Below are positions 1 through 49,748 of a DNA stretch of 64,000 nt, one piece after another. Below the pieces are notes generated by a model. The model had not been told where the DNA came from and made no database searches. It saw only the letters and a program-made list of their open reading frames with translations. Position 1 is the stretch's first letter, and each line of letters opens with the position of its first letter. Source of the stretch: an uncultured Chitinophagaceae bacterium (GTDB lineage: Bacteria > Bacteroidota > Bacteroidia > Chitinophagales > Chitinophagaceae); NCBI GenBank assembly GCA_903895845.1, contig CAITVK010000096.1, positions 1-64,000 on the forward strand. The letters are read 5' to 3'. The translations under genes were made by a program, and so were the position numbers.

Positions 1-210
1 CTTCCGACACGTGTAGATGGTGCGTTCCAAACTAAGAACCCTCTTCCGACACGTGTAGATGGTGTGTTCCAAACTAAGAACCCTCTTCCGACACGTGTAG
101 ATGGTGCGTTCCAAACCAAGAGCCCTGTTCCGACACGTGTAGATGGTGTGTTCCAAACTAAGAACCCTCTTCCGACACGTGTAGATGGTGCGTTCCAAAC
201 TAAGAACCCT
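1..210. repeat. 42-nt tandem array (two 21-nt half units), cut by the window edge
   Basis: Five 42-nt units follow each other without gaps, with a few substitutions. Each unit has two diverged 21-nt halves, one with GACACGTGTAGATGG and one with TTCCAAACTAAGAACCCT; both begin near TTCC, which suggests an old 21-nt dimer. The first half contains the 8-bp palindrome ACACGTGT. The array continues to the left of the window. The period is a multiple of three, so one frame stays open by itself (a 14-residue repeat), which is not evidence for a protein. Confidence 0.9.
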
Positions 211-517
211 GTCTGGTGGTTTTATTTACGCCTATTTACTCCCGTGTTTACACGGAGTTTTGCATTTTCTGTATTATTTATTGAATCTTTTACCTCATCT
301 TTGGAAACGGATAGGTGAATAGAGTTGCGTTGACGCAACTAGTAGGTGACCACAACTATTTTTTTTAATTGATTTAATAGTAATAGGTTAAGAGAAAATA
401 CGCTAGTTTGTGAGGTTTAAAAAATGAGCCTATTAGAGAGCTAGCAGAAATTTTATAACATTTCAAGATTCTAGAACATTCTAAAATAATTTTTTGTACA
501 AGGTAAATATTAAAAAC
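211..517. other. Non-coding stretch with a small perfect hairpin
   Basis: No convincing gene is seen. An 8-bp perfect inverted repeat (AGTTGCGT, two bases, ACGCAACT) lies at 323-340. It is not followed directly by a T tract, so it is not a clear terminator. The rest is AT-rich sequence leading to the damaged gene at 518. Confidence 0.5.
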
Positions 518-909
518 ATGAAAGAACAAGAAACTGAAACTACACAAGGTCTAATATCTGATTCAGATAAGGAGGTCAGACCTATTGTATAAAAAAAATG
601 GTTGACCTCATTGATAAACTATATTATAATTTCAGCATTTACTAACTTTATTTTTTTGGGTACACAGGAAAATCCCAAGTTATTACACATATCGGAGGCG
701 GGGTTGTTTCAAAAATAGAACTTGTCAAAACCTTGTTTATATGTTTTTTTATTTTCGTTCCAATTATAGGATTTATTTTAGGCACAATTACTACATACTT
801 ACCTTTTAAAAATGCTACCTATTCAGAAAAATATTTACCAATTTCTTTACTTACTATTTTAGCTATTGAAGTAATAATGATGCTAATTAGAATTGCAGTT
901 TTGGTTTAA
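518..909 (+). pseudogene. Broken small membrane-protein gene
   Basis: An ATG at 518 opens a frame that stops after 24 codons (TAA at 590-592, beside an A8 run). The same frame then continues to a TAG at 716, including a hydrophobic stretch (residues near NYIIISAFTNFIFLG). From about 694 another frame is open to TAA 907-909 and encodes two hydrophobic segments separated by a short polar loop (FICFFIFVPIIGFILGT and ISLLTILAIEVIMMLI). The pattern fits one membrane protein of about 130 residues with a nonsense mutation and a frameshift; sequencing error at the A8 run cannot be excluded. The family is not recognised. Its stop codon abuts the attC-like element at 910, as with the other two genes that carry this element. 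Confidence 0.55.
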
Positions 910-1039
910 CTGCTACCAACAAAAGTATTTAGGAAAGGGGCTTGCGAAAGTAATTAAGAGATAATACTTTCTTTTAGAAGTTGTTTGGAAAGGAACATTC
1001 TTTTCAAGCACCTTCCCGAACACTTATTCGTTGGTGGCA
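910..1039 (+). repeat. attC-like imperfect palindrome, copy A
   Basis: Arms at about 911-944 (starting TGCTACCAACAAAAGT) and 1005-1039 (ending TTCGTTGGTGGCA) are imperfect reverse complements, roughly 26 of 35 positions matching, with outer ACCAAC/GTTGGT. A smaller hairpin, AAAGTA (947-952) with TACTTT (965-970), sits inside. It begins immediately after the stop codon at 909. Related elements follow genes at 1755 and 19287. Size (~130 nt), position and AAC/GTT ends resemble integron attC sites, but the strict GTTRRRY core is not matched, so the name is an inference. Confidence 0.6.
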
Positions 1040-1061
1040 ATGCTTTTACACATCCTGCCAA

Positions 1062-1093
1062 TTTGAAAGCAATAGAGAAAACCTTTAAATTTG
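1062..1093 (+). promoter_or_regulatory. Bacteroidota-type promoter for the two-gene cassette
   Basis: TTTG at 1062-1065 and TAAATTTG at 1086-1093 are separated by 20 nt, matching the Bacteroidota -33/-7 consensus (TTTG, ~19-21 nt, TAnnTTTG). The ATG of the first cassette gene is 18 nt downstream. It lies after the attC-like copy A, so the cassette would carry its own promoter. Confidence 0.65.
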
Positions 1094-4005: not shown

Positions 4006-4602
4006 ATGATAAAAGTAGGACTCACAGGTGGGATAGGTAGCGGCAAGAGTACCGTGGCACAGGTATTTAAAACGCTTGGCATACCTGTGTTTGATGCTGA
4101 CATTGTTGCCAAAAGAATTATGGAGGAAGACAAAGTGCTTGTAGCTTCAATTAAAAAAGCATTTGGCGAGGAGTCTTATATTGGAGATAAACTGAACAGG
4201 AAATACATAGCTGATATTGTTTTTAAAGATAAGTATCAACTTGAGCTACTGAATAATCTAACACATCCCGCCACCATCAAAGCTGCAGAAGAGTGGATGG
4301 CAACACAAACAAGCCCTTATTGCATTAAAGAAGCCGCTCTCCTGTTTGAAGCGGGTACAGCAGGCAATCTGGATATTATCATTGGTGTACAAGCCCCCGA
4401 TGCTTTACGCATCAAAAGAGTGATGCACCGCGATGATATTTCCCGTCAGGAGGTACTGAACAGAATGGGAAAGCAAATAGAACAAGACATTAAAATGAGA
4501 CTCTGCGATTATGTGATTATCAATGATGAACAACGGCTCTTGATACCGCAAGTGTTGGAATTGCACAACAAATTCACCTCGGATACAACTCATAACTTAT
4601 AA
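4006..4602 (+). CDS. coaE: Dephospho-CoA kinase
   Basis: CoaE phosphorylates the 3'-hydroxyl of dephospho-CoA, the last step of CoA synthesis, in the cytoplasm. The 198-residue length is typical. The P-loop GLTGGIGSGKST is at residues 6-17, followed by the conserved GIPVFDAD (DxD) motif, the THP segment (LTHPATIKAAEEW), and the lid-region arginines in RVMHRDDISRQEVLNRM. The last codons (TTHNL, stop) are formed from a 7-nt repeat array that continues into the intergenic gap, so the natural C-terminus has probably been altered by the repeat. Confidence 0.95.
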   Translation: MIKVGLTGGIGSGKSTVAQVFKTLGIPVFDADIVAKRIMEEDKVLVASIKKAFGEESYIGDKLNRKYIADIVFKDKYQLELLNNLTHPATIKAAEEWMATQTSPYCIKEAALLFEAGTAGNLDIIIGVQAPDALRIKRVMHRDDISRQEVLNRMGKQIEQDIKMRLCDYVIINDEQRLLIPQVLELHNKFTSDTTHNL

Positions 4603-4619
4603 TTCATAACTCATAACTT
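4588..4619 (+). repeat. 7-nt phased repeat at the coaE 3' end
   Basis: CTCATAA, CTTATAA, TTCATAA, CTCATAA, CTT follow one another in exact 7-nt register. The run starts inside the last coaE codons, supplies its TAA stop, and fills the 21-nt gap to the next gene. Confidence 0.8.
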
Positions 4620-6980: not shown

Positions 6981-7182
6981 GGTGTCATTGAAGGTCAATT
7001 CATGCGCATTGAACACCGACTCTATGCCAATGAAAGCCAATTCAATTCAATCGTAATGAACGCCAACTCGGTCGCATTGAACACCAATCCGATGCCAATG
7101 AACGTCAATGCGGTCGTAATGAAGGCCAATTCACTCGCAATGATTACCAACGAGATTCCAATGAACCCCCATCCGATACTTT
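6981..7182. repeat. 21-nt phased degenerate array
   Basis: The core word (A/T)(A/T)TGAA recurs at 6987, 7008, 7029, 7055, 7076, 7097, 7118, 7139 and 7160 (one degenerate), every step 21 nt except one of 26. Units look like GTCGCATTGAACACCAATCC, with short CATTG/CAATG symmetry. Sequence identity between units is low, so the phase is better conserved than the bases. Confidence 0.8.
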
Positions 7183-7600: not shown

Positions 7601-7670
7601 ATGAGTTATGAGTTATAAATTATAAGTCTAAGCAATCTGCCTTAACTTATAACTTATAACTCATAACTCC
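7601..7670. repeat. Inverted pair of 7-nt phased repeats (long hairpin)
   Basis: The left part (GAGTTAT, GAGTTAT, AAATTAT, AAGTC) and right part (CTTATAA, CTTATAA, CTCATAA, CTCC) both keep a 7-nt register and are near reverse complements, giving an imperfect stem of roughly 25 bp around a short loop near 7631-7640. It lies directly between the stop codon of the lyase-like gene and the upstream region of the cysteine-rich gene. Confidence 0.75.
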
Positions 7671-19183: not shown

Positions 19184-19281
19184 CTTAACAAGAATACTCC
19201 TTCGATACTACTACTAAAAGAAAGCACTATTGCTGAATTTCTTCCCTCCACAAGCACTTTACTAAACACTTTTGTTGGCAG
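19184..19281 (-). repeat. attC-like element, copy C
   Basis: On the minus strand it begins 5 nt after the stop codon of the gene at 19287 with CTGCCAACAAAAGTGTTTAG, then GAAATTCAGCAATAGTGC and TTTCTTTTAG, aligned with copies A and B at 910 and 1764. It ends with GTTAAGC, which does match the integron core GTTRRRY, immediately before the C9/A10 tract. It is shorter (~98 nt) and its outer arms pair less well than in copy A. Confidence 0.5.
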
Positions 19282-19862: not shown

Positions 19863-20167
19863 AAATAGGTTTTGTATAGCCACCAACTCTTAAATAGACG
19901 AAGGTTTGTTATCAAAGCTTAATATTAACAATAACCTTCAAACCCTTAACCCACATCATTTCAGTAACAAATATAATTTTTGCAAAGATTATATCTTTCC
20001 TTTCCCTTTATTGGTCTTTCCCATTGCCAATGTAGTGTGTTCTTCACCAACAACAATCAACACAACGGTTGTTTAATCAATTAATCCTCTACAAATATAT
20101 ACTTCACCCTTCATTGTTATCAATCAAAGAGACGAAGCAATGCGATTAACCTCTACTAACTACCCTT
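19863..20167. other. Non-coding gap
   Basis: No gene or strong signal is seen. AT-rich sequence lies between the small secreted protein's start and the palindromic array. Confidence 0.5.
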
Positions 20168-20533
20168 TTTTACGCAAACACTAGTCTTTGCACCCCAAAC
20201 ACTAGTGTTTGCACTCTAAACACTAGTGTTTGCACCCTAAACACTAGCGTTTGAACTCTAAACACTAGTGTTTGCACTCTAAACACTAGTGTTTGCACTC
20301 TAAACAGTAGTGTTTGCACCCTAAACAGTAGTGTTTGCACCCTAAACATTAGTGTTTGCACCCTAAACACTAATGTTTGCACTCTAAACACTACTGTTTG
20401 CAATCTAAACACTACTGTTTGCACCCCAAACACATGTGTTTGAACCCTAAACACTAGTGTTTGCACTCTAAACACTACTGTTTGCACCCTAAACACTAGT
20501 GTTTGGACCTTAAACCGTAGTGTTTGCGTAAAA
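20168..20533. repeat. 17-unit 21-nt palindromic array bounded by a 12-bp inverted repeat
   Basis: Seventeen contiguous 21-nt units (20177-20533) of the type AACACTAGTGTTTGCACTCT. Most units carry the 14-bp palindrome AAACACTAGTGTTT or a one-base variant. The array edges are a perfect 12-bp inverted repeat, TTTTACGCAAAC (20168-20179) and GTTTGCGTAAAA (20522-20533). The long frame on the minus strand (a repeated FRVQTLV heptad) follows from the 21-nt period and has no start context that supports translation. Confidence 0.92.
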
Positions 20534-20744
20534 GAGTGTGTATTTTGCTTTTGCAAATGATGGGAGTACGACTTGTTATATACAAACAAAGGAGAAAAGG
20601 CATCAATGTAGGAAGTATTTGGTGGGGAGTGGAGGGTTGTTAAAGTTCCTTTGGGATGATGCTACCAAAATATTTGGAACCATAAGGCATTTTCATCCCT
20701 TGTTTCCCCTTAATAACTTATAACTATTCCATCTTGTAAATTGA

Positions 20745-26843: not shown

Positions 26844-27289
26844 TGCCCCCTCCTTGTCATTTGTACGACTATTAGTAACAAGCCTAATAACAGCAAGTTG
26901 TATAACCCAATAAAAGCAACCTACAGTACATTAATTTACCCACCACCCATCTCTTAAATTGTACAAAAAGGTCATTTAAAATAGCAATCCATAAACATAT
27001 AATTCCCTGACACGAATAATATTCAGTTTTTTGTTTGTACGGTAACCGAAGCATAAAAACAGTAACTAGCAGTTGGAAACGTTACCGAAATCAAAACTAA
27101 AACGTTGTAGTATATTTAATAATCAATTACATAGAAATACTTCTCTTTACTACATACTTTCGTAAGAACACAATAAAAAATTAAGGACTGCTTGCTTTTT
27201 GCTATATGATTAAGCTTAAAAAAACGTCTGATTATTTATAAGGGTGATATACCACTCATACACAAAAGCGCTTGCGTAATTGCCATTTT
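26844..27289. other. Upstream region of the first giant T9SS gene
   Basis: No complete gene is seen. 26844-26930 (minus) holds a hydrophobic reading-frame remnant. Two AACGTT centres lie at 27078-27083 and 27101-27106 (separate entry). TACTTTCG at 27155-27162 could be a -7 element, leaving a ~125-nt leader before the ATG at 27290. Confidence 0.45.
27076..27106 (+). promoter_or_regulatory. Candidate LacI-type operators
   Basis: GGAAACGTTACC (27076-27087) is a near-perfect 12-bp palindrome centred on CG, the symmetry expected of LacI-family operators. A second AAACGTTG centre lies 23 nt downstream. A similar palindrome lies upstream of the other giant T9SS gene (59237-59248). Confidence 0.35.
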
Positions 27290-30200: not shown

Positions 30201-33200
30201 GTGGACTGACAATAGCATCCGGAAATACTTTGACTATAAGTAACAGTGCAGTTTTAGATATGGCATCTTATACACTAACAGTTTCTACTATAACAACTTC
30301 AGGGTCTGGCACATTAAAAACACAGAATACAAGTGCAACACCTATAACAACAGGAAAAACTTGGTCTTTTAATGTAATCTATAATAATCTTACAGGTGCA
30401 CAAACGGTAATGGCTGGCACGTACAACGGAGGGTTAACCATGAGTAATACCAGCGGTATTAATACGGCTTCTGGAAGTTTAGTACTTGCAAATGTTCCAC
30501 TTACGCTGAACTCAGGAAGTACTTTAGACTTAGGGGCATCTTACTCTATCTCAGTATCAAACACAACAGGTAATATAGGTTCCACGGGCAGTGGTACACT
30601 TAAAACAGGGAATATAAATTCTCCTACTTATAAATTAACTAGTGGTTTAACTTGGGGAGGAACAGTTGTTTACTACATACTTGGCAACCCTCGTATAGTT
30701 CCAGGTAGTTACACAAACCTTACAGTTGATAATGCTACCAGTGGGGTTACAGGTCATGCAATTAACTGGGGCAATGGAGTTGCTTCAAATGAAACAATTA
30801 GCATCTCAGGTATTTTTAGTATAGATAATATTACATCTTTTACTGCGTACTCCAATAATGTTCAGTTTACAGGTAGTAATCAATCAGTCGTGTCACTTTA
30901 CGGCTCATATCCTACCAATAATATTTCCTTTTATAACCTTGATATAAGTGGAGCAACAGGTTTTACTTTTCCTTCTGGTACAACTAACATATCAAATACA
31001 TTTATCCCAGGTACAAACACCTCCGATTATGCTACTCAGGGAACAATCAATTTCAACAACCTTACCGGAGGGCAAACAATACCTGCATTTACCTATTATA
31101 GCCTTGCTTTTGGTAACACAAGTGGTACACAAACTGCTAGTGGGGCAATTGTTGTGAAGAGTAATCTTACCCTGCCAACAAGTACAGGTGTATTTGATGT
31201 TTCTGCTAGCAATTATCCAGTATCTATCGGTGGAAACTGGGTATCTAGTGTGAGTTCAAGTTTTAACGCAGAAAGTGGAACGGTAACTTTTAATGGTACT
31301 GGCACACAAACAATTTCTGGAACAAATACCTTTTACAATTTAACTGATGTAACTGGTGGTGCAACATTGACCTTAACAGCTGGAACTACACAAACAATAA
31401 CCAATATACTTACATTAACAGGTGCATTAGGCAATTTATTAAACTTCAAATCGAGTACTTCAGCTGTTGCTTATATCACATTAACAAATTATGCCAATAC
31501 AGCTATTAGTTATTGCAATATCACTTATATAACAAATAATTCAACTACGGTTAATGCTGCAAGCTCTACAAATGGAGGAAACAATACGAACATCAAGTTC
31601 AACAATGTTTGGATAGGAGGTACTTCAGGCTCTTGGAATACCGCAACCAATTGGGGATCGGGTACTGTACCAACAAGTGGAGATGATGTTATATTTGATA
31701 ATAGTATTGCAGGAAATACTAGTCCAACAGTAAGCTTTACATCTAATCCTGTTGCAGGATCACTTACATTTAATAATAGCAATGTGACTTTCACTTACAA
31801 TGCTACTCTTACTGCTCCTTTAACTGTTTCTGGGAGCGTAACACTAAATGGATCTGTAGTATCGATGGGTACAGGAACTTCCTTAACTACCCCAAGTACT
31901 TCTGTAGCTAATAATGGAATTGGGTTGCAAGTGGGTGCATCTAGCATAGCTGGTACTCTTACATTAGCAAGTACTAACGTGGGAAGTGTTATCTATTCTA
32001 GATTATACTTATGTAACTACCAATCAAGTACAGCCACCACAAACACTCTTTATGGCCCTGTTGCAATGGATGCTAATGACTATTTGGGTGAAGCCACAAC
32101 AGGTATTGCGCCAGCACTTGTTTACGCTTATGCTCCTACAACGATTGGATCATCTACTTTTTATTTTGACCCTAATTTGCAGACCCCCTTGTTTAAGTTG
32201 ACGAGTTCTGGTGCAAAACAAACCTTGGCTTTGGGCAGTAATTTATATACTTCTAGGGTTGTTTTAGGGTCTTCGAATTTGAATACAGCAAGTAACCCTG
32301 CCATTAATTTAAATGGGAACATCCTTACAATTGGTACAGGAACTTCAACTTACACGGCGGGTACTATCAATGCAAACATAGGTCAGATCAGCTTTGATAA
32401 TACTATCGCTCCAAGTATTGGATATGCTTTATTCACCCCATCTACTGTAAATTCATTGGTTGATTCTTGCGCAGGATTGACTTTGGCTTTTTCTCAGCCT
32501 TTAACTATTACAAATCTTTATTTGAAAACAGGTGCATTAGATAATTCAACTAATAATATTACCATTCCTATTGGAGGAAATGTTTACGCTTATGGAGGCA
32601 CGTTGAATGCTGCTCCTGCTTTTGCAGGAACAGCAAATGTTACTGTGAATGCATCTTGTACAGCTGGCAATGAATTGCAGGGAACAGGAGGTTCTGTTGG
32701 TGCTTTAAACGTTAATACAGGTACTTATACACTAGCCTCCACCTCGAGTGTGGCTTCTGTAAACATCGCTAATGGGGCAACTCTAAGTTATCCTAATTCA
32801 GGTACAGCCATCACCCTAACAGTAACTGGTGATGTGGCAACTAATACTAGTGGTACTTTGACTGCTGGCACTCAAACTAGTGCCGTGTTACATCAATTAG
32901 TTTTAGGTGGCAATGTAACCGGAAGTGGGACTTTAAGTTTAACCGGTAGTGGGACTACTAAGGCAGTTGATGTTACTTTTAATAATGCTTCTTCTAGTAC
33001 TATCACTTCAGGAACATTAAGTTTTAACAGTGTAACTTTAAATAAATCTACTGGAATCACATTGGGAGGTTCTGGATCTATTGCTAATAACCTTACACTC
33101 GCTAATGGAACGCTCACAGTTGGGGCGAATACATTGACTTTGGCTGGGGTAGCTCCTAGTTTAACTTCAGGCAATATAGATGCTAGTAATAGTAGTGCCA

Positions 33201-36200
33201 CGGTTTTATTTACAAATACTACTTCTATAACATTGCCAGCTGGTCTGTTTACGGACAACATAAACAACTTTACGGTTAATGGTGCTGGTCGTGTTGTGTT
33301 GGGAGAAGCATTGACAATTAGTGGAAACCTTATCTTGACTACAGGTGCATTGGATATTTCTTCTTCCAATTACGCCATCAGTCTTGGTGGTAATCTTATA
33401 ATCACAGGGGGAAACCTTATTCCAAGAAGCGGTACAGTGACATTGAATGGTAGTGGAACTCAGACTATCTCATCAGGGCTAACCTTTAATTCGTTGTATG
33501 TATATAATGGAAGTGTTGTTATTCCAGCATTATTAACAGCATCCAATATCACAATAGGAGATGGAACACATACAATGAGTCTTACACAACCTACAGCAAC
33601 ACTTGTTTCAGTTACAAATGCATTTGCGGTATCTTCAAGTGCAAATTACACCATTGCAGCTGGCACAGGTTCTTCGGTTTCTGCAGGAACTAATAATGCT
33701 GTTCTTAATTTTAATTCGGCAAATGGAACTATTACTAATAACGGAACCATAGCCATAAATGGATGGTTTACGAACGGCAATCAAAATAGTACTACTGCTA
33801 CAACTCTTGCTGGCAGTGGAACTTGGACTATTGGTAGTCAGGGTGTATATAATCACAATACAATAAACGGAACTATCCCAACTATGACATCTTGGGTTGC
33901 AGGTTCAACTTTATATTATACTGGTACACATGGGGCAAATACGCTAGCTGCTGGAACCAATCAATCATTTAGAAAAGTTATATATAACTGTCCTACCAAC
34001 CCTTCATCTGCCAATTATTTTAATCCAAGTGCAATCCTTGATACACTTTATATTGTGAATTCTGGAACTGCTACCCCAAGAACCTTCCAAATTGAGAATA
34101 GTGTTTCAACAGTGAGTATTGGGACACTAATTGTAGGTACTGGTGCAGGCTCTTATTATTTCAACGGTGGAATATCAAGTAGTAATCCAGTTGTTGTTTC
34201 CTTAGGTACAACAACTGCACCTACAATAACTGTTGCTCGTGATGTAACTGTTCAAGGGAATAGTAGTATTAATACCGCCACTTTAACTACTTCTTCAGGT
34301 AGCTCTATATTAAATTTAGGTGGTAATTTAAATGTAGGCTCAAATGCATACTTTACAACTACAAATATTACTGTCAACCTAGACGGTTCTGGTACAAGTT
34401 CAACACCTCAAACCATAACATCTTCGGGACAAACATTTACTGCCTTAACAGTAAGCAATGCAACCTATGCCACACTTGCAAACACTATAGCAGTTATGGG
34501 GTCACTTACTTTAACATCTGGCACATTAAACGATGGAGGAAACACTGTTACTGTTAATGGAAGCATCACGGGTGCTGGTACACATACTGGTTCTGGTCAA
34601 TTGATAATTACTGGTGGAACAGCTACACATTACATTGGTAGTAGCTCAGGTACTATTAATCTTGGTAATGTACAGATAAACAGTAGTTCTTATATCTTGG
34701 GCTTAGCAGGCAATGCAGTAATTAATGGAACAATGACACTTACTGCTGGATTGTTTAATATATATAGTTACAATCTAACCCTCGCTAATGCTCCTGTTGG
34801 CTATACTTCTAGCAGTTATATTTATCATTACTCCACGGGTAATGGTACACTCACCATTAATAATGTAGGTTCAGGGTCTACAGTTTTCCCTGTAGGCATT
34901 TCTGCCAACTATGTACCTATTACTTTTACTGGAACCACAAATTCTCCTAATGTTACAGTAGGTTTTGGTTTAACATTAACTAACGCCCCACTCAATGCCA
35001 GTAATATCGTAAATGTTCAATGGTCTATTCTTTCTAGTACAGCAAGTTCGACAACTCCAACATTTCAATACAGTAGTAACAATCAAGCTAGTGGATATCT
35101 TCCTACTAGTACAATAGTAGTAGGAGCATACTCTGGCAGTGCATATTCAGAAAATCTATTAGGCGTTATTTCTGGCAGTAGCCCATATACTGTTTCAACA
35201 ACATCTGCTATTGCGCTTACAACAAGCTTAGCAAGTTTATATGCTATAGGCAATCAGTATTCTTTTGCTCCTGGAGCTCCATCTCCATCTATTACCTATT
35301 TAACAGGAGGGAACAATCAAGCCACAATCGGCTTTTCTGCAGTTACTAATGGCTCTAGTATCATTACTAATGGATATTCTGTAACACCCTACATAGGGGG
35401 TGTAGCTCAAACAACTATAACAGGAATCAATAGTAGTCCTTATATAGTTACTGGGTTAACAAATGGTACTACCTATACTTTCAAGGTGAGTGCAACCAAC
35501 AGTGTTGGAACAGGAACTAGTGCATTATCTAATTCAGTAACAATTGCGGTACCTACAATTTACGATTCCATTTTGACTAACAGAACAGCAGCTATTCAAT
35601 TAAATACCCCTTCTATAGCAACTAGCTTAATTTCTGCAACTTATGGATACATCAACGGAGGAATACTTAGTGATTCTACATTTAGTTCATTAGGGGAACC
35701 TCCTACTTTAACTAGTCCCAATAAAGATTTATATTACTTCAACTACCTTAGTCTTATTCAGAATATGGCTGAGGTATACACTTACAATTATACTTACATT
35801 AAAAATGGTGTAAATGAAACTGGATATAATAATCCTGCAGTATTGGCAGCTATCAAACAAACACTTACTTGGTGGTTACAACGTGTGCCTTACTATACTT
35901 GCAACAACTGGCATTATGCAACTATTACTTACCCTTTAAACTTAGGTAATGTGTTGGTATTGATGCGTGGTATTGGTGTTAATGTAGATACAACAGGATG
36001 GGGAGCAATTGAGAAGAATGCTATTAACTTAGTTTATGCTAATCCTGAAACTCCAAATACAGGGTTGATTGCAAATGGATATTTATCTCCATCTACGAAT
36101 ACGGGTGACAATAGAACAAATATCAGTGATTACTGGTTGGACTGGGGTTGCTTGACCAAAAATGTAAATAGCAATGGTTGGGATGTAGTAGATACTGCCA

Positions 36201-39200
36201 TCAATGAATTATATACCACAATGGACTATACACAGAGTTTGCCCGATGGATATAAACAAGATAATTCCTTTATGCAGCATTATGCCCAAGATTATACGCA
36301 ACAATATGGTGGTGGATGGGCTTATGACATTTTAGCTTTTGGGAACTATTTGAAAAATACATCAAAAGCAATGACCCAGACCAAATTGGATTTGATGTAT
36401 AATTATGTTCACAATTCTTATTATGCATCTGCAAGAGGTATTTATAAAGATTTCAATTTGAACGGAAGGGAGATTAGTATTCCAAATAATAATTTGGTGG
36501 ATAGCACCATTGCTGAAATGGGGGCGCTTGTGGATCCCACTCCATCTCACATCTCCGATTATAAAACTGACTTGGCAAATTGTGAAACTTCAAACCCTAA
36601 TTATGTTGGGGATACAATCCATACCCATTATTTTGTTTCGGATTACACCTTGCACAAACGACCAAATTACAACTTCTCGGTTCGTTCTGTATCTACACGA
36701 ACCAACATGGATGAATCGTTAAATACCCAAAATTTATTGGGTACGTTCTTGGCGCAAGGAGCTACTTCAATTATGGTTCACGGCAATGAAAATAATAATT
36801 CATTTGCCAACTGGAATTGGAATTATGTTCCAGGTGTTACTACGAGTGATTCCTTGGATGGCTCCGGCAATTCTGCTACTCAACAAAATCCTAACTATGG
36901 TCAATATGATACAGGCTATACCCGATTTGTTGGTGGTGTTAGCGATGGAAAGTATGGGGCTTCTACACTGTCTTTGAGTTATGACCACGTCACTGGCAAT
37001 AAATCTTGGTTCTTCTTTGATAGTGCGGTTGTTTGTTTAGGTGCCAACATTCAAAGTGCCAAAACAGGAATGAACACCGTGACAAGTGTAAATCAACAAT
37101 TAATCAACGGACCTATTTATTACAACAATAGTGCAGGTGGTTCTTATACAACCTTTACTGCGCCAACAGATGCAAATCCTGCCACCGTTTCAGGAACAAA
37201 TATTTACAGTGTGTTCCACGATAGTATTGGTTACTTCTTCCCCACGGGTAATAATGTTACGATCAAACAGGATAGTGTTTATGGAGACTGGTATAACATT
37301 GATAATTTGTATATCTCATCTATACCAGATACAACAGATATGTTCCAGTTGTCTATCAACCACGGTGTAGCTCCTTCCAACGGAAGTTACCAATATATAG
37401 TTGCTCCGGGGATTTCTTATTCAACAATGCAAACTTACAATCCACTTAACACAATAAACATTCTTGCAAATACAAAATATGTTCAAGCAGTTAAACACAA
37501 TGGGTTGAATATGATGCAAGTGATTTTTGATTCTGCTACAAGCATTACAGACCCAACATCTGGCATTACAGTAAAAGTGAACCAGCCTTGTGCGTTGATG
37601 CTTAGTAATATGAATCAAAACCCATTAACAGTTACAGTCTCAGATCCTACTCAGTTACTATCAACCCTCACTGTTACTATGTCGTATAGTAGTAATACTT
37701 CTCAATTTAATTTGGTCACAGAAACATTGCCTTCTGGCTATTTTGTGGGCTCTTCGGTTAGTTTCACAGTAGATTCTACTTCTGCTAATTCTAATTTATG
37801 GATAGGAGCTACAAGCACTAGTTACAATACTGCAAGCAATTGGCAGAGTGGAGTAGTACCATCCTCTGGTGCTAACATAACAATTGCTTCTGGTGCAACT
37901 TACTATCCTGTGTTAAACAGTAGTGCTGCGACTACACTTAATAATCTTACCCTCACAAGTGGGTCTTTCACAGTAAATAGTACCGATACTTTGAAGGTGA
38001 GGGGTGCTATTAACAATACAAGTGGAACAGTTACTGTAAATGGTACTGTTTCTTATTCAGGTACTACTGCTCAAACTATTGCGGCAAACACGTTTGCTAG
38101 TAATACTGTAAACAATATAAGTATTAATAATACTTCTGGAGTGACATTGGCGGGTGCGCTATATGTTGCTGGCACCGTCTATTCAACTTCTGGAACACTT
38201 AACAGTAATGGCAACCTTACTTTGCTATCTACAAGTACAGGTACTGCAAGAATGGATCAGATAGCTGGTGGTATTGCTGGTGATGTTACCGTGCAACGTT
38301 ACATTACAGCCAAGACTGCCCGTAAGTATAGTTACATAGGTAGCCCGGTAACGGCTAGCGTACGCAATAGCTGGCAACAACAAATTTATGTAACTGGTGC
38401 GGGTACTGGCGGTGTGCCTTGTGGTACGACTAATGGTGATGGTGGCAGCAACGACAAATACAACAGCAATGGGTTTGATGTAACTCAAAACAGTGCGGCT
38501 TCTATCTACAAATACAATGCAACTCTGGTTAATGGTAGCAGGTATGTAGGTATTGCCAATACTGAGTCTACCAATCTGTCGCCAGGAACTGGGTATTGTG
38601 TAAATATCCGTGGCAATAGAAACAGTAATACAGTAAACTGTGTAAACCAATTGGAGTCGAATACCCCGGCAGCACCAGAAGCAGTGACTCTAAGTGCAAC
38701 TGGTCCGGTAACTACTGGTGACCTTTCTGTTACGCTGAACAATCCTTCTGTGTATGCCTTTACTTTGTTGGCAAATCCTTATCCTTGCCAGATTAGTTTC
38801 AGTGCTTTTCAGGCAAGCAACAGCAATATCAACAACAATATGTGGACCTATAGTCCATTCGGAAACAACAATTACACCACCTACTCTAATGGTATTATTG
38901 CAAATGGTGCATCTAGCTATGATAATACCTCTGGCAACTATATTGCAAGTGGACAGGCATTTTTTGTGCAAGCCAATGCGCCTGGTTCTGTTACTTTCCA
39001 CGAAAGCCACAAGACAAATGGGGCATTGCCTGGTACGCAATATTTTGGGACTGACGTAAACAGAATAATAAGGATAGGATTGAAAGATAACAGCGAAACA
39101 AGTCTGTTGGATGAGATTGTTGTTCGTTACAACAGCAATGGTTCCGACGTGTACACCCAAGGTTGGGATGCAAGTTCATTAAGCAGTGGTAGCCAGATTC

Positions 39201-40030
39201 TAGCTTCGTTAAAAGGCACAAAACGGTTAGCTATTGCCACTCACGGAGAGGTCTTAACCACAGATACAACCAAATTGTACATTAAGAGTAGTGCTGTTGG
39301 TTCTTTCAAGTTGTCTTTCAGCGATTTCAAGGATTTAGATAATACGCAGTCCATTACACTGATAGATAAGTTCTTGAACACCACACAAGACATGAGAGCA
39401 AATCAGGTATATGCCTTCAATGTAACGAGTGATACTACGAGTATGGGGTACAATCGCTTTGCAGTCGTTGTGGGTGCAGCAAGTACATTGCCAGTCAACT
39501 TTACCAGTATCTCTGCTACCAAGGAAGGAGAAAAGGTCAATGTGAGATGGTCAATTGCCAATGAAGTAAACATTGCCAGTTATGAGGTAGAAAGAAGCAC
39601 CAATGGTACTTCCTTCAGTACTGTCACCAACAAGAAAGCGGTAGGTACAACTAGCTACGCTATCGAAGATGCAAGCATCCCAGCAATAGCTACTACTTTG
39701 TACTACCGCATCAAGGCAATTGGTACAGATGGCACTACCAGGTACAGTGCAATTGCCAAACTCATCACTCATAATTCATCACTCAGCACTATTGCTGTCT
39801 ATCCAAACCCAGTCAAGAGCAAGCTGAACATCAGCTTGGGTGCTGCAAGCGGCAATTACGATGTACGCATCACGTCTGTTGCAGGCAAGGAAGTAATTGG
39901 TAAGTCAGCGGTTACAGTTACGGATGGCAAACTTAGCTTGGATGCCAGCAGCCTAGCAGCAGGTGTCTATGTAGTTGAGTTGACTGACAAAGAGGGCAAT
40001 AAGTACCAAGAGAAGTTCATTAAAGAATAG
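27290..40030 (+). CDS. Giant T9SS-secreted protein with a family 8 polysaccharide lyase domain
   Basis: About 4246 residues from the ATG at 27290 (a TTG 18 nt upstream is less likely). Signal peptide (~1-35), then ~2600 residues of Ser/Thr/Asn/Gly-rich beta-solenoid-like repeats, with tryptophan modules such as FSWTGGGANNNW and WNTATNWGSGTVP. A fibronectin type III domain follows (~2660-2750). Residues ~2760-3495 match polysaccharide lyase family 8 (hyaluronate/chondroitin/xanthan lyases): NNWHYATITYP, DNSFMQHY with a later YGGGWAYD, SARGIYKD, and NWNYVPGVTT. A further WNTA-type module and repeats lead to the C-terminal ~75-residue T9SS type A sorting domain (YPNPVKSKLNISLG to EKFIKE). Likely a cell-surface or released polymer-degrading adhesin. 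Confidence 0.88.
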   Translation: MKKIFTNFACSKSVPTRTWLLVIIFLFFSVSLFATTGTFSWTGGGANNNWSNTSNWSVTSGSGTYPGAGTNDVVQFTNVTATVTVDVTPATLASITFYGSTVQFVGTVATTQTTTSSGIASGNTTVTLSAANASIAANQQVAITSGTGTIPQYASVVTYTSGGPTIALSNAPTASNSAATTLTFYNVAPTITTTNCYFTNNNTVILGGAFTVSTSLDFSNSTGAGSKLYLPNTQYLTVGGLAGMSTTNVFSGSANPQLKFSGSTGTAYFDAAAPSFFGLYVNNSITATLGNSVTTARLSYGTFSKIVLTNSGTILSHTFGGTSTYSGLGIDASASGTGIQFVGTFALPSNYFANTTVNTLTMNKASNYVTLAQNLSVTNLNLTAGLLDNSTNTVTVANGGTIQKGAGNLKVAPMYGTTSSDKINVTYTASVSTGLELQGTTGSVGTVTVNDGVTTTLSNSGINNVTPTTAFPTSSNNYTSPSIIFGAPSTGGVTATGTVITSGSGATRNIVGIIITNPGSGYTSAPTCTISDGTGPTISSFTIGLNSTNPSVTNVTIGSGTSGVLTYPNSTNAVTLNITSGVTVNVGASFNCGTQSGTVTHLLNVGGSITNSGTFNLYNAATGYVDANLNGGNTQTLTGTFTFNNLTISNANANLAASAAITTKAALIVAANFTQPVNSTISSFSLTVNSNKTFTISGTSASSLSTASATNAVFTLSTSNGTVNNNGTITVNGWMTSNITSVSSVYSGSGTITFNNYSVFQQAVSEGTIPTATWNTGSTLYFTGTAGTAPTIPASTYANIIWNCASQSTSTGMVLNPTSISGALVVLNTNTKTLTLSTTSTASTTINVGSITVGSGTGGYSFNGASITTAAATSLVFYSTNTSAPTISVSGDINVQGYNATGTATLSNTNACTLNAQGNFTLAPSNSTFTSTNTTVNFNGTSGTLQTISGTITFAGLTISNTTASVVVGSGGLTIASGNTLTISNSAVLDMASYTLTVSTITTSGSGTLKTQNTSATPITTGKTWSFNVIYNNLTGAQTVMAGTYNGGLTMSNTSGINTASGSLVLANVPLTLNSGSTLDLGASYSISVSNTTGNIGSTGSGTLKTGNINSPTYKLTSGLTWGGTVVYYILGNPRIVPGSYTNLTVDNATSGVTGHAINWGNGVASNETISISGIFSIDNITSFTAYSNNVQFTGSNQSVVSLYGSYPTNNISFYNLDISGATGFTFPSGTTNISNTFIPGTNTSDYATQGTINFNNLTGGQTIPAFTYYSLAFGNTSGTQTASGAIVVKSNLTLPTSTGVFDVSASNYPVSIGGNWVSSVSSSFNAESGTVTFNGTGTQTISGTNTFYNLTDVTGGATLTLTAGTTQTITNILTLTGALGNLLNFKSSTSAVAYITLTNYANTAISYCNITYITNNSTTVNAASSTNGGNNTNIKFNNVWIGGTSGSWNTATNWGSGTVPTSGDDVIFDNSIAGNTSPTVSFTSNPVAGSLTFNNSNVTFTYNATLTAPLTVSGSVTLNGSVVSMGTGTSLTTPSTSVANNGIGLQVGASSIAGTLTLASTNVGSVIYSRLYLCNYQSSTATTNTLYGPVAMDANDYLGEATTGIAPALVYAYAPTTIGSSTFYFDPNLQTPLFKLTSSGAKQTLALGSNLYTSRVVLGSSNLNTASNPAINLNGNILTIGTGTSTYTAGTINANIGQISFDNTIAPSIGYALFTPSTVNSLVDSCAGLTLAFSQPLTITNLYLKTGALDNSTNNITIPIGGNVYAYGGTLNAAPAFAGTANVTVNASCTAGNELQGTGGSVGALNVNTGTYTLASTSSVASVNIANGATLSYPNSGTAITLTVTGDVATNTSGTLTAGTQTSAVLHQLVLGGNVTGSGTLSLTGSGTTKAVDVTFNNASSSTITSGTLSFNSVTLNKSTGITLGGSGSIANNLTLANGTLTVGANTLTLAGVAPSLTSGNIDASNSSATVLFTNTTSITLPAGLFTDNINNFTVNGAGRVVLGEALTISGNLILTTGALDISSSNYAISLGGNLIITGGNLIPRSGTVTLNGSGTQTISSGLTFNSLYVYNGSVVIPALLTASNITIGDGTHTMSLTQPTATLVSVTNAFAVSSSANYTIAAGTGSSVSAGTNNAVLNFNSANGTITNNGTIAINGWFTNGNQNSTTATTLAGSGTWTIGSQGVYNHNTINGTIPTMTSWVAGSTLYYTGTHGANTLAAGTNQSFRKVIYNCPTNPSSANYFNPSAILDTLYIVNSGTATPRTFQIENSVSTVSIGTLIVGTGAGSYYFNGGISSSNPVVVSLGTTTAPTITVARDVTVQGNSSINTATLTTSSGSSILNLGGNLNVGSNAYFTTTNITVNLDGSGTSSTPQTITSSGQTFTALTVSNATYATLANTIAVMGSLTLTSGTLNDGGNTVTVNGSITGAGTHTGSGQLIITGGTATHYIGSSSGTINLGNVQINSSSYILGLAGNAVINGTMTLTAGLFNIYSYNLTLANAPVGYTSSSYIYHYSTGNGTLTINNVGSGSTVFPVGISANYVPITFTGTTNSPNVTVGFGLTLTNAPLNASNIVNVQWSILSSTASSTTPTFQYSSNNQASGYLPTSTIVVGAYSGSAYSENLLGVISGSSPYTVSTTSAIALTTSLASLYAIGNQYSFAPGAPSPSITYLTGGNNQATIGFSAVTNGSSIITNGYSVTPYIGGVAQTTITGINSSPYIVTGLTNGTTYTFKVSATNSVGTGTSALSNSVTIAVPTIYDSILTNRTAAIQLNTPSIATSLISATYGYINGGILSDSTFSSLGEPPTLTSPNKDLYYFNYLSLIQNMAEVYTYNYTYIKNGVNETGYNNPAVLAAIKQTLTWWLQRVPYYTCNNWHYATITYPLNLGNVLVLMRGIGVNVDTTGWGAIEKNAINLVYANPETPNTGLIANGYLSPSTNTGDNRTNISDYWLDWGCLTKNVNSNGWDVVDTAINELYTTMDYTQSLPDGYKQDNSFMQHYAQDYTQQYGGGWAYDILAFGNYLKNTSKAMTQTKLDLMYNYVHNSYYASARGIYKDFNLNGREISIPNNNLVDSTIAEMGALVDPTPSHISDYKTDLANCETSNPNYVGDTIHTHYFVSDYTLHKRPNYNFSVRSVSTRTNMDESLNTQNLLGTFLAQGATSIMVHGNENNNSFANWNWNYVPGVTTSDSLDGSGNSATQQNPNYGQYDTGYTRFVGGVSDGKYGASTLSLSYDHVTGNKSWFFFDSAVVCLGANIQSAKTGMNTVTSVNQQLINGPIYYNNSAGGSYTTFTAPTDANPATVSGTNIYSVFHDSIGYFFPTGNNVTIKQDSVYGDWYNIDNLYISSIPDTTDMFQLSINHGVAPSNGSYQYIVAPGISYSTMQTYNPLNTINILANTKYVQAVKHNGLNMMQVIFDSATSITDPTSGITVKVNQPCALMLSNMNQNPLTVTVSDPTQLLSTLTVTMSYSSNTSQFNLVTETLPSGYFVGSSVSFTVDSTSANSNLWIGATSTSYNTASNWQSGVVPSSGANITIASGATYYPVLNSSAATTLNNLTLTSGSFTVNSTDTLKVRGAINNTSGTVTVNGTVSYSGTTAQTIAANTFASNTVNNISINNTSGVTLAGALYVAGTVYSTSGTLNSNGNLTLLSTSTGTARMDQIAGGIAGDVTVQRYITAKTARKYSYIGSPVTASVRNSWQQQIYVTGAGTGGVPCGTTNGDGGSNDKYNSNGFDVTQNSAASIYKYNATLVNGSRYVGIANTESTNLSPGTGYCVNIRGNRNSNTVNCVNQLESNTPAAPEAVTLSATGPVTTGDLSVTLNNPSVYAFTLLANPYPCQISFSAFQASNSNINNNMWTYSPFGNNNYTTYSNGIIANGASSYDNTSGNYIASGQAFFVQANAPGSVTFHESHKTNGALPGTQYFGTDVNRIIRIGLKDNSETSLLDEIVVRYNSNGSDVYTQGWDASSLSSGSQILASLKGTKRLAIATHGEVLTTDTTKLYIKSSAVGSFKLSFSDFKDLDNTQSITLIDKFLNTTQDMRANQVYAFNVTSDTTSMGYNRFAVVVGAASTLPVNFTSISATKEGEKVNVRWSIANEVNIASYEVERSTNGTSFSTVTNKKAVGTTSYAIEDASIPAIATTLYYRIKAIGTDGTTRYSAIAKLITHNSSLSTIAVYPNPVKSKLNISLGAASGNYDVRITSVAGKEVIGKSAVTVTDGKLSLDASSLAAGVYVVELTDKEGNKYQEKFIKE
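39759..39788 (+). repeat. 7-nt phased repeat inside the giant gene, just before the sorting domain
   Basis: CTCATCA, CTCATAA, TTCATCA, CTCAGCA run in exact 7-nt register and encode the KLITHNSSLSTI linker immediately ahead of the T9SS sorting domain (AVYPNPVKSK). The words closely match the intergenic array at 4588-4619. Confidence 0.75.
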
Positions 40031-40660: not shown

Positions 40661-40770
40661 CCAATGTTAGCTGTCTTTTCCTAAAAGCTGACAGATGTTG
40701 AGCATAAGCTGTCAGCTTTCGTCTATTGTTAGCTGACTTTGCTTCAATGTTAGCTGGCTAAGCTGTTATA
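40661..40770. repeat. Degenerate ~21-nt phased AGCTG repeat
   Basis: AGCTG recurs at 40669, 40686, 40707, 40731 and 40752: steps of 17, 21, 24 and 21 nt. Variants include TGTTAGCTG(T/A/G)C and AAGCTGTCAGCT, the last holding local dyad symmetry. It sits between the DUF3592-like gene and the smc stop codon. This is a weaker array than the others. Confidence 0.6.
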
Positions 40771-45604: not shown

Positions 45605-45815
45605 CCAGAAAAGCGAGTTTTTCTTTAAAGGAATATAGTTTTTCTTAGAAAGAAAAGTTAGAAACTAACAAAGAATGGAAGTTTTATTAGAAAGAATCAG
45701 AGGAAACTAATAAAGAAAATAAGCTTTCTCTTGTGGAATTAGTTTTTCTTTAAAAGAAAAACAAGAAACTAACAAAGAAACATTGGAAACTAACAAAGAA
45801 AAACTGCAAAAACCT
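45605..45815. repeat. 21-nt phased A-rich array with inverted halves
   Basis: AGTTTTTCTT(T/A) occurs at 45616 and 45637 (step 21) and 45741. GAAACTAA(C/T)AAAGAA occurs at 45661, 45703 (step 42), 45765 and 45786 (step 21), with a degenerate unit at 45682. The two words are partly reverse-complementary (AAAGAAAAACT), so the array reads as an inverted pair. GTTAGAAACTAAC is a small palindrome in it. Confidence 0.7.
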
Positions 45816-47360: not shown

Positions 47361-48563
47361 TTAAAACCCATTAATTCCAGTAACATTGGTTGTAATTACG
47401 TTGGTCCCGTTTTTGGCAGGCAGTTTATTGATAACTACATTCTTGAAGGTTACCCCATTGGCATAACTCATAGTCATCCCTTTTTTGGCAGTAATATTGA
47501 CGTTTGTAAATACAATATTCTGAATAATACTGTTGGCCAATCCATTGATGATTCCTGCGTTTGCAGAACCAGTTGCCGTAAGGTTATTGATGAAAAAGTT
47601 GGCAACTGCCGGTATCTTTGGAGGGGTAGTAACTACATTCTGGTAATCGAAAGTTGAATAAATAGGATTAGTTACATTTGTCATAGTTATGTTGGAGTAA
47701 TAGACATTATAAACCAACCCACCCTCTCCTGGCCCAGATTTTATCCGGATGCCGCTTGTAGTTCCGTTGAAAGTACAACCATCAACTTTCAAATTACAAT
47801 AACCTCCATAAGTTTGACTACCAATTGAGAGCCCATGCCCAATACCAAAAAAACAATTTTGAACAGTAATGTCTTGGGTCTGATACGCATTAACAATGCC
47901 ACTGGCTTTAATAGCTATATTATCGTCTCCATCACTGATGGAGCAATTTGTTATTAATACATTCACACAATCTGAGGGGTCAATTCCGTCGGTATTTTTT
48001 GCTAAAGCATCCAATGTATTAATGGTTACATGGTCTATAACAACATTTGTACTATTATTTGGAACTATATGGAAAGTTGGTGAATTTTGAAGTGTCAAAC
48101 TATCTATAGTAAGGTTAGTTACATTGGATAAAGTTATCAATCTTGGCCTGCTCAAGCTACTATTAGCAGCAAATGCTACCCACCAAGGTTTTCCGCTTCC
48201 ATCAATAGTACCACCACCTGTGAGTCTTACATTTGTAAGTGTGCCAGAATTAGTAATTAAGTCTTTCAGCTTATTCCCAACAAACCAGTCAGTCATAATT
48301 GGGCTTCCTAATAGGATTGCACCGCTATCAATCCTAAGTGTAATGTTACTTTTCATACTAATTGATGCAGTTCTATAAGTGCCAACAGTAAGCCTTACCG
48401 TTCCACCACCTGTTGAATTGCAGTAATCAATTGCCCCCTGGATATTTGCAGTTTGAAGGGTGGTATCTCCTGCAAGAATTGTAAGCGTAGAATCGTTGGC
48501 AATAATCTTGCTTGTACATAAAACCCCCATTAAAACCAAAAGATAAAAGAAGCGTTTTTTCAT
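47361..48563 (-). CDS. Glycoside hydrolase family 28 protein (polygalacturonase-like)
   Basis: GH28 enzymes cut galacturonan and related pectic chains by inverting hydrolysis in a right-handed beta-helix. The 400-residue protein has a signal peptide (~1-22) and all family motifs: NTDGIDP (~190), DGDDNIAIKA (~212), GHGLSIGS (~245) and RIKSGPG (~277). The catalytic Asp residues and the His are present, so it should be active. No T9SS or lipobox is seen, suggesting periplasmic location. It fits the polysaccharide theme of the two giant proteins and the lyase-like protein. Confidence 0.9.
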   Translation of the reverse strand: MKKRFFYLLVLMGVLCTSKIIANDSTLTILAGDTTLQTANIQGAIDYCNSTGGGTVRLTVGTYRTASISMKSNITLRIDSGAILLGSPIMTDWFVGNKLKDLITNSGTLTNVRLTGGGTIDGSGKPWWVAFAANSSLSRPRLITLSNVTNLTIDSLTLQNSPTFHIVPNNSTNVVIDHVTINTLDALAKNTDGIDPSDCVNVLITNCSISDGDDNIAIKASGIVNAYQTQDITVQNCFFGIGHGLSIGSQTYGGYCNLKVDGCTFNGTTSGIRIKSGPGEGGLVYNVYYSNITMTNVTNPIYSTFDYQNVVTTPPKIPAVANFFINNLTATGSANAGIINGLANSIIQNIVFTNVNITAKKGMTMSYANGVTFKNVVINKLPAKNGTNVITTNVTGINGF

Positions 48564-48802
48564 TAATCAAATAATTGAGACTACACTAAGGATGAATGAT
48601 AAGCCAAAGGAAATTATACCTAGAAGCAATAAGCCGCAAGTATAGAAGAAGGATTGAACAAACAGTTTAACTCCTTATTTATTCTACTTTAAACCGCGCA
48701 AAGAAGATGCTTCGGAAAGTATGTTCTATCATGAGACACCTTCTATTGGAAAGGTAATCTTTACAGAGATTTAAAGTTACCACATGAGGATACTAAACCT
48801 TC

Positions 48803-49057
48803 CTACTCAACGATAGTACGTTTATTTTTCATCCTCTTTGCCGCATAGCCAATACCACTGGCAGCTAGTATCAGACTCATGCCACCATCAAAGGGAACCA
48901 CAGGCCCGCCATCGCCACCAACGCCTTCACTGGGACTACCTGGTCCGCCAATGCCCGGATCATCTGCCGGAGACTGTGCCTTGGAGATGGTTGTTACACA
49001 AATACTTACCAGAAGGATAAAACCAAGCGTGCGGAGTGCCTTAACTGTTTGTTGCAT
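48803..49057 (-). CDS. Small exported PID-CTERM-like protein
   Basis: An 84-residue protein: signal peptide to SKAQS (~28), a Gly/Pro/Asp-rich mature stretch (PGIGGPGSPSEGVGGDGG), then VPFDGGMSLILAASGIGYAA and a basic end KRMKNKR. A short P-x-DGG motif, one hydrophobic helix and a basic tail is the arrangement of the PID-CTERM protein-sorting tail of Bacteroidota, thought to be processed by an exosortase-like enzyme. Here PFDGG replaces PIDGG. The mature part would be only about 25-30 residues long. No exosortase gene is in the window. Confidence 0.65.
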   Translation of the reverse strand: MQQTVKALRTLGFILLVSICVTTISKAQSPADDPGIGGPGSPSEGVGGDGGPVVPFDGGMSLILAASGIGYAAKRMKNKRTIVE

Positions 49058-49202
49058 ACTATTTTGTATTAAAAGTGTTTATTGATTGATTGACTAACCA
49101 CTGTTATTCATCCAAAAGCAATTCTTTTCTTTATTCTTTATTGATGAATGAATCTATTTTTTATTGATTGAAAGAACCATTGCCCAACCCCGAAATGTAT
49201 TT

Positions 49203-49748
49203 GTACCAATACCGATGCGCCCGACACAGAAAATCTTCGAATTCATGTAGTCGGTTAGATGACTGACACAGCGAATCTTCGAATTTGTACAGTCGGCCAG
49301 ATGACCGACACAGCAAATCTTTAAATTCATGTAGTCAGTTAGATGACCGACATAAAAAATCTTCGAACTCATGTAGTCGGTTAGATGACCGACACAGCGA
49401 ATCTTCAAATTTATGTAGTCAGTTAAATGACCGACACGGCAAATTTTTGTATTTGCCCTAGCACAAGAACTCGTGACACAGCAAATCTTCGAATTTGCCC
49501 TAGCACAAGAACTCGTGTTACAGCAAATCTTCGAATTTGCCCTAGCACGAGAACTCGTGACACAGCAAATCTTCTAATTCGCCCTGACACGAGAACTCGT
49601 GACACAGCAAATCTTCGAATTCGCCATAGCACGAGAACTCGTGTTACAGCAAATCTTCGAATTCACCCTGACACAAGAACTCGTGTTACAGCAAATCTTC
49701 GAATTCGCCCTAGCACGAGAACTCGTGTTATAGCAAATCTTTTTCCTC
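49203..49748. repeat. 26-unit modular 21-nt array with alternating and swapped half units
   Basis: Contiguous 21-nt units alternate X-Y-X-Y. X (13 copies) is based on ACAGCAAATCTTCGAATT. Y exists in two unrelated types: Y1 based on GTAGTCGGTTAGATGACCG (six copies, 49203-49433, the first degenerate) and Y2 based on CTAGCACGAGAACTCGTG (seven copies, 49455-49727). Y1 contains GTCGGT/ACCGAC and Y2 contains CACGAG/CTCGTG inverted repeats. The X unit stays the same across the switch at 49434-49455. No translation signal is seen for the open frames created by the period. Confidence 0.93.

Follow-up and report, generated by a model that had tools for sequence, protein, structure and literature searches.

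Intergenic arrays of constant 21-nt period and variable sequence in an uncultured Chitinophagaceae bacterium

Introduction

Six intergenic tandem arrays lie in a 64,000-nt stretch (C96:1-64000, hereafter the window) of the genome of an uncultured freshwater Chitinophagaceae bacterium (4.01 Mb, 138 contigs), and the question they raise is why arrays of unrelated sequence should all repeat at 21 nt or at twice that length. A preliminary description, made from the letters of the window, had proposed that the phase is conserved where the sequence is not, and that either a process makes or keeps 21-nt units whatever their sequence or a protein or architectural role reads their spacing. The genus of the host is uncultured in the available records, and its relatives are metagenome-assembled genomes (MAGs) of Chitinophagaceae bacteria. 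The period, the internal symmetry of the units and the turnover of the arrays were analyzed in 577.8 kb of the same genome (14%), in ten genomes of the same genus and in more distant Bacteroidota. The window and 38 further stretches made up the own-genome sample. Among the latter, C39, C50 and the remainder of C96 were included for an earlier match or as neighbours of the window, and the others were taken unseen, by contig number or length.

Results and Discussion

A 21-nt comb in the genome

Self-identity of 62% or more over 84 nt was the threshold for counting a region at each lag from 8 to 109, where a single array may count at multiple lags. Lags of 21, 42, 63, 84, and 105 gave 28, 33, 25, 26, and 17 matches, respectively, and the 97 other lags together gave 16, placing 129 of 145 matches at multiples of 21. 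Nine of the 16 off-comb matches were found at 41, 62, 65, 82–83, and 103–104, corresponding to units near 20.5–21.7 nt, four were at the heptamer-like lags 14 and 28, and three at 15, 20, and 24. No matches were obtained at lags of three (31–32) or five (52–53) helical turns, nor in block-shuffled DNA at the eight lags tried. The lack of a peak at 21/42, which the preliminary description had named as refuting its proposal, was looked for in this sample (14% of the genome), and a sharp peak was seen instead.

Tandem Repeats Finder (TRF) at a low cutoff (score 50) gave a less clean picture: 37 of 82 arrays were best described at 21, 42, 63, or 84 nt, eight at 41 or 61–65 and 17 at 7 or 14. The remaining 20 had other periods; 17 were shorter than 60 nt, and three measured 71, 88, and 555 nt. 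The longest repeat of the sample with a unit not near a multiple of 21 was a tandem repeat of 153-nt units at L040:10018-10572, possibly coding. Some arrays of the genome had 41- or 62-nt units. In total, 39 arrays were listed, of which two were heptamer runs, leaving approximately 37 arrays in 578 kb. Short heptamer repeats (e.g., AACTCAT, ATTATCA, AGTTATA) form a separate class in the same genome (Table 1).

Spacing was also scanned with pairs of family-specific sites. Pairs of GGTGNNNNCACC separated by gaps of 0–30 nt (spacing 12–42) in 13 genomes gave 55 forward matches, 49 of them spaced 21, five spaced 42 and one spaced 15 (in genome G011), and the backward control pattern gave three matches in the own genome and none in the others. 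For CCAAGNNCTTGG, 13 of 29 pairs were spaced 21 and 16 were spaced 42. Because the families were chosen from arrays and nearly all pairs lay inside about 20 arrays known beforehand to have this period, these scans do not test the period independently; their main message is that pairs of these sites are almost absent at any other spacing. A pair in G003:C315 may fall within a gene.

All six window arrays exceeded dinucleotide shuffles (2000 for each array; any lag of 10–89, fewer for the shortest array) with p ≤ 0.0025 (Table 1). The arrays of the preliminary description were present at the positions given there, two of them (40661-40770 and 45605-45815) in a decayed state. TRF reported five of the six at a score of at least 40, covering just 52 nt of 45605-45815 and omitting 40661-40770, whereas the lag analysis recovered all six. 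Period 7 was not among the top lags of any of them, which separates them from heptamer microsatellites. The top score of 40661-40770 was at lag 62 with a further peak at 45, and 45605-45815 had side peaks at lags 83 and 62; these off-period peaks indicated phase shifts within both arrays. Array 1-210 abuts, and is cut by, the contig end, and array 20168-20533, in the divergent intergenic region upstream of pheT, terminates in the inverted repeat TTTTACGC/GCGTAAAA.

Dyads and their shared phase

Dyad symmetry was evaluated against column permutation and reached p ≤ 0.05 in 20 of the 39 own arrays. In a pooled set of 59 arrays from several genomes, p ≤ 0.05 was obtained for 25 and p ≤ 0.01 for 18. 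This set had been trimmed, and arrays below 95 nt, heptamer-like runs (lag-7 identity above 0.5 or lag-14 identity above 0.55) and same-sequence repeats were removed first; it contains 58 distinct arrays, since stretches L126 and L186 hold one array, with a non-significant dyad, twice. The palindromes named in the preliminary description were present in the window arrays, but its statement that most units hold one was reduced by these tests to roughly 40–50% of arrays. Among the five window arrays evaluated, the dyad was significant in 20168-20533 (dyad 0.91, p = 0.003) and 49203-49748 (p = 0.003) and not in 1-210 (p = 0.083) or 45605-45815 (p = 0.085), and no dyad signal was detected in 6981-7182 (p = 0.70).

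Where 42-nt units consist of two unlike halves, the dyad axes of the halves tend to share one phase. In 12 arrays with unlike halves (lag-21 identity below 0.5), the in-phase arrangement ranked 1, 1, 1, 1, 2, 3, 10, 16, 18, 29, 41, and 42 among 42 shifts. Half of these arrays (6/12) were in the best three shifts (p = 8e-5, with a cutoff set after seeing the ranks), rank 1 alone was reached by 4/12 (p = 1.4e-4), and 5/8 arrays whose halves were at most 25% alike were in the best three (p = 9e-5). In the window, array 49203-49748 carries CACGAG-AA-CTCGTG in the second half and AAAT-6-ATTT in the first, in identical dyad phase (rank 2 of 42), and the halves of array 1-210 ranked 3 of 42. The recurrence of phase where sequence differs, as claimed in the preliminary description, was supported for the dyads.

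Over 26 dyad groups pooled across genomes, symmetry peaked 5–6 nt from the dyad axis (0.81–0.83) and was low at the centre (0.54), a profile that half-sites separated by roughly one turn would be expected to give. Because the inner seven positions served to choose the axis, the fall beyond position 7 is by construction. Around the axis, no base pattern common to these groups was found beyond a mild preference for A at 6 nt (0.51 vs. 0.34), no k-mer search within a single genome having been made. Two families were informative on how symmetry changes. In the TGGTG family, four arm positions paired in 92–95% of units, and the strongest covariation among 190 column pairs was symmetric; it came from eight units of one array, L254, in which GGTG..CACC was changed on both arms to GGGG..CCCC. 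A single 2-nt shift of phase also occurs within this array. For the CCAAG family, the top covarying pair was likewise symmetric and derived mainly from two loci, with the double change from CCAAG..CTTGG to CCGAG..CTCGG in 9/9 units of L269 and 7/10 units of L270. Pairing at two outer positions of this family was limited to 54–58% of units, as a single half-site is all that is kept in many of them.

Position between genes

None of the 39 own arrays, the two heptamer runs included, lay inside a called gene, in line with the preliminary description of arrays between genes. Taken alone, this count is weak against coding, since open reading frames (ORFs) consisting of more than 35% array were removed beforehand, together with those below 90 aa, and array-coded frames could not show as genes. 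In a codon-position test of 55 arrays, variation was not focused on one position (four arrays at p < 0.05, none at p < 0.01). Seven of the 39 arrays were at stretch ends, and the 32 with genes on both sides were in tandem (22), divergent (8), and convergent (2) contexts, compared with 144, 43, and 24, respectively, for the available intergenic regions of at least 100 nt. With no clear preference for context, promoter or terminator elements were rejected as an explanation.

Families and turnover between close species

The absence of a common sequence held among the six window arrays and failed genome-wide, where array families recurred at several loci, mostly with unrelated flanks. Flanks were common to three of eight loci in the TGGTG family and, among the nine loci of the CCAAG family, within two orthologous pairs. 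Array 20168-20533 has a relative at C39:995-1226 with homologous flanks of about 100–240 bp, and array 49203-49748 has relatives in the same-genus genomes G010 (contigs C99 and C190) and G001 (C33). No common mobile element was defined, as the 20168/C39 family has homologous flanks and other families share little past the array.

Between close species, arrays differed in copy number and in presence. Counted by eye, the ortholog of 6981-7182 in G010 had approximately 4 units vs. 9 here, with conserved flanks on both sides, and an array upstream of smc had approximately 11 units in G010 and 7 in G001. The array downstream of smc (40661-40770) had no counterpart at the corresponding place in G010, G001, or G003. 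A 277-nt segment carrying array L013:12181-12408 was missing from G010 and G003; its ends, inspected by eye, showed no duplication, and a mobile element with target duplication was rejected. Site L011:10550-10797 holds a 42-nt array in the own genome; at the same place, G001 carries an array of 21-nt units that is unrelated in sequence and has AATAACAA/TTGTTATT dyads, and G010 lacks an array. At an orthologous site of the CCAAG family with flanks 92–96% identical, the units of G010 were mostly CCAAG..CTTGG, with A-T at the changing pair in 8/10, and those of G001 were CCGAG..CTCGG, with G-C in 9/9. By contrast, G001:C151 and G010:C96 were 96% identical through the array, gap-free.

Arrays contained 68 insertion/deletion (indel) events against 2385 mismatches (0.029), compared with 0.014 (12/866) in orthologous, largely coding alignments, or 0.020 when one array-bearing pair was included. 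Strong purifying selection on phase was not supported by these values, and nothing was found to show that the spacing is actively read or kept, as the preliminary description had suggested.

Distribution among relatives

Stretches of ten same-genus genomes (366.7 kb) contained 21-nt-based arrays in G004, G006, G007, G010, and G011, so that the second outcome named as refuting in the preliminary description, a lack of arrays in neighbouring strains, was looked for and not found. G004 also holds a 96-nt array of 22-nt units and G011 one of 87-nt units. The stretches of G012 had 41-nt arrays, a heptamer run and repeats at several other periods. In G001 the scanned stretches had a heptamer run only, yet 21-nt arrays occur elsewhere in that genome; the stretches of G003, G005, and G008 (15.7–16.6 kb each) had no arrays, although G003 carries 21-nt arrays elsewhere. 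Outside the genus, stretches of 12 genomes totalling 400 kb, ten from the family and two from the order, showed no comb; among them, G015 gave lag-14/21 matches typical of heptamers, G021 had a single match at lag 8, and a 45-nt repeat was present in G030.

The full comb was present in four of 80 named Bacteroidota loci, which together cover 1.48 Mb. Two of these, L186 and L217, were same-genus MAGs (query-protein identity 86 and 84%) and are not independent, as L186 and G004:C2 are one contig and so, probably, are L217 and G007:C4. The other two were distant uncultured Bacteroidetes MAGs, L210 (Umea3_bin-1094, 47%) and L229 (Day2-2_bin-746, 46%), which may point to a repeated origin. L162 (86%) had lag 42 alone, and the remaining loci had heptamers or assorted periods.

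Carriage by phages or plasmids was considered and rejected on searches that covered region 20100-20600 in phages and array 49203-49748 in plasmids, neither of which gave a match. Three motif scans of viral contigs returned six stretches, one and none; the seven stretches were rejected as relatives, as they had differing spacers, were judged unrelated by eye and had a G+C content of 0.43–0.62 vs. 0.40 here. A 21-nt array, GGTGCAAGCACCCCGACAGAG, is common to two viral contigs, L277 and L281, where the DNA has 52–55% G+C. It has no clear link to the present families and turned up because it fits the motif pattern used in the scan.

Relation to known repeats

Constant-size bacterial repeats of 20–21 (20–23) and 52 nt, with variable sequence, occurrence in many groups and unexplained function, have been described in the accounts drawn on here (Subirana and Messeguer, 2020, 2021; PMC8161180). 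The preliminary description knew no named family that fits; this class does. As far as those accounts go, its members are non-coding, with several families per species, a constant size of 20–21 nt and unrelated sequences, and partial conservation between strains is described there for the 52-nt class; the two helical turns are likewise remarked on (PMC8161180). The present arrays agree in their constant size, their unrelated families (the 26 dyad groups) and their non-coding position, and are a strong example of this published, unexplained class. They may differ in that a characteristic short sequence is described in most arrays of a species, whereas none was seen here around the dyad axes of the 26 groups, no k-mer search within one genome having been made, and a dyad of fixed phase recurs instead; the cases detailed in the portion consulted are from Bacillus, and that portion does not mention Bacteroidota (PMC8161180). 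Compared with the published text at hand, the shared dyad phase in unlike units and the in-place turnover look new. Literature searches with narrow, exact terms returned no report of 21-nt arrays in Bacteroidetes and, among the papers listed, none on this genus by title or abstract, which shows little about what is in print.

Iterons are direct repeats of plasmids, approximately 17–22 bp long, that are bound by Rep proteins. Like the arrays, they are direct repeats in phase, with a length close to two helical turns and partial dyads in some cases, but here many arrays are dispersed between chromosomal genes instead of marking one origin; no Rep domain was found among 18 scanned window proteins, a subset of the window ORFs. 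The palindromes of repetitive extragenic palindromic (REP) sequences and bacterial interspersed mosaic elements (BIMEs) are also short, intergenic and present in many copies; however, REPs form families by sequence and lack a fixed tandem period of 21 nt, in contrast to the constant period and variable sequence of the present arrays. Arrays of clustered regularly interspaced short palindromic repeats (CRISPR) are defined by repeats of at least 23 nt with unique spacers. A CRISPR-like array was rejected for the present units, which measure just 21 nt as a whole with a spacer of about 7–9 nt that is partly conserved within families; cas genes were not sought. The tandem repeats of Borgs, in the part of the published account used here, are similar in being intergenic, nearly all unique in sequence and variable in unit number, one example having units of 20–21 nt, but differ in being perfect, A-rich and located in genes in about half of the cases, with units of 18, 20, 21, and 36 nt in one example (PMC9879509).

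Possible origin and function

The explanation that we tentatively prefer, while holding it with somewhat less than even confidence, is that the arrays are satellite-like runs for the cooperative binding of a putative dimeric protein at sites two helical turns apart. In many arrays, dyads of about 14 bp alternating with spacers of about 7 bp would place dyad axes every 21 bp on one face of the DNA, and each array would form a runway for cooperative binding by a dimeric protein, or by related proteins with different half-site preferences. Binding of this kind would leave half-sites roughly one turn apart in dyads that recur every two turns. In its favour are the comb with its empty three- and five-turn lags, the near absence of site pairs at other spacings, the dyads and their common phase in unlike halves, the symmetry profile, the symmetric double changes and the balanced G.T and A.C mismatches. 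The role would most likely be architectural or of a silencing type in the nucleoid, not the control of single genes. Arrays would grow and shrink in 21-nt steps, undergo homogenisation at each locus, give rise to copies elsewhere, and be lost and replaced between close species. The data themselves establish the period, the location outside genes, dyads in almost half of the arrays, their common phase in unlike halves, changes in copy number and the reuse of sites, whereas protein binding, its dimeric and cooperative nature, the seeding of copies and any role in the cell are inferred. An unlikely, more far-reaching version holds that a dimeric protein of relaxed sequence preference reads the dyad phase at exactly two turns, as a lineage-wide spacing code of intergenic chromosomal DNA in which each array retains its geometry as its sequence drifts symmetrically or is replaced in place.

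Several observations weigh against protein binding. No significant dyad was obtained for 34 of the 59 pooled arrays, and many units of the CCAAG family keep one half-site. The symmetric changes rest on few events, the TGGTG family without L254 showing none at that position, and the symmetry profile also fits a hairpin with a 4-nt loop. No motif was common to all families in the 26 dyad groups from several genomes, so that one sequence-specific protein cannot read them all; no candidate binding protein was found, and no genome-wide search was aimed at one. Furthermore, the 32 arrays flanked by genes had no clear orientation preference, arrays vanish or change between close species, and indels within them were not depleted. 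As phase was not visibly guarded and no common motif was found, the constancy of the period may arise at birth or amplification of an array, not through later selection.

Nearly as likely as the protein-bound arrays are functionless satellites, which would be generated by a replication or repair process of this lineage that duplicates DNA in 21-nt steps, the arrays being born, homogenised, spread and lost without benefit; small hairpins of single-stranded DNA perhaps help, with template switching from arm to arm making and perfecting the dyads. Such copying would give the symmetric changes and the hairpins the symmetry profile, and the fast turnover at L011:10550-10797, where three genomes are all different, the loss of the L013:12181-12408 segment, the absence of orientation preference and of arrays in called genes, and indels at least as frequent per mismatch as in other orthologous sequence are all in keeping with it. 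It is harder to reconcile with the near absence of lengths 20, 22, 31, and 52 (1, 0, 0, and 0 matches), as we know of no slippage or repair process that gives a single 21-nt unit length for any sequence, and unlike halves with dyads in one phase require an extra assumption. That the arrays act as RNA, as chains of hairpins or by pairing with other RNAs as suggested for Bacillus satellites, appears improbable. The dyads could form hairpins, and transcription of 52-nt arrays of B. coagulans is reported in the text available from Subirana and Messeguer (PMC8161180, PMC8625621); moreover, G.T and A.C mismatches in the transcribed sense were lopsided in 3 of 19 arrays individually (p < 0.05, about one expected). 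Pooled, however, G.T was not in excess of A.C (37 vs. 35), folding energies of sense and antisense strands did not differ (20 arrays, p = 0.65), no Rfam match was found in the window, and there was no preference for a transcribed orientation; the balanced mismatches and equal folding leave nothing that points to RNA pairing. Heptapeptide-coding repeats, raised by the remark in the preliminary description that 21 nt is seven codons, are hardly credible: the length is divisible by three, but the arrays lay outside called genes, the codon-position test was flat, and some units measure 41 or 62 nt.

Bacterial satellites of constant size entered the literature some years ago, but a handle on their mechanism has been lacking; this genus offers one in its density of arrays, in close species where the same site is filled, empty or refilled, and in unlike half-units sharing a dyad phase. 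The choice between protein-bound architecture and 21-nt amplification becomes testable in this genus.

Features of the window

The arrays of the window and the heptamer repeats are listed in Table 1.

Table 1. Tandem arrays of the window and heptamer repeats, with unit structure, self-identity and significance against dinucleotide shuffles.
Position	Unit	Sequence features	Self-identity	p (any lag)
1-210	42 nt × 5, two unlike 21-nt halves	One half with ACACGTGT, the other with GTTC-8-GAAC	TRF 94% match; lag 42, 0.94	0.0005
6981-7182	Diverged 21 nt, ~9 units		Lag 21, 0.57	0.0005
20168-20533	21 nt × 16.8	Unit AAACACTAGTGTTTGCACCCT	TRF; lag 21, 0.86	0.0005
40661-40770	Decayed, ~21 nt	Units resembling AGCTGNCAGCT; directly downstream of smc	Lag 21, 0.52	0.0025
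45605-45815	Decayed, 21/42 nt	Units in both orientations (GTTTTTCTT, AAGAAAAAC); GTTAGAAACTAAC dyad	Lag 42, 0.50	0.0010
49203-49748	42 nt, ~12 double units		TRF; lag 42, 0.79	0.0005
4587-4618, 7643-7668, 23190-23272, 39760-39790, 50103-50136; also in L010, L014, L017, L025, L038	Heptamer repeats

Two further features of the window were recorded. An ORF of 4252 aa occupies 27272-40030, and its first 1209 residues had no Pfam family match. A stretch of about 80 nt at 19203-19281 recurs four times in L022 (at 2500, 4115, 7144, and 9024) with 86–90% identity and may represent a shared C-terminal sorting domain.

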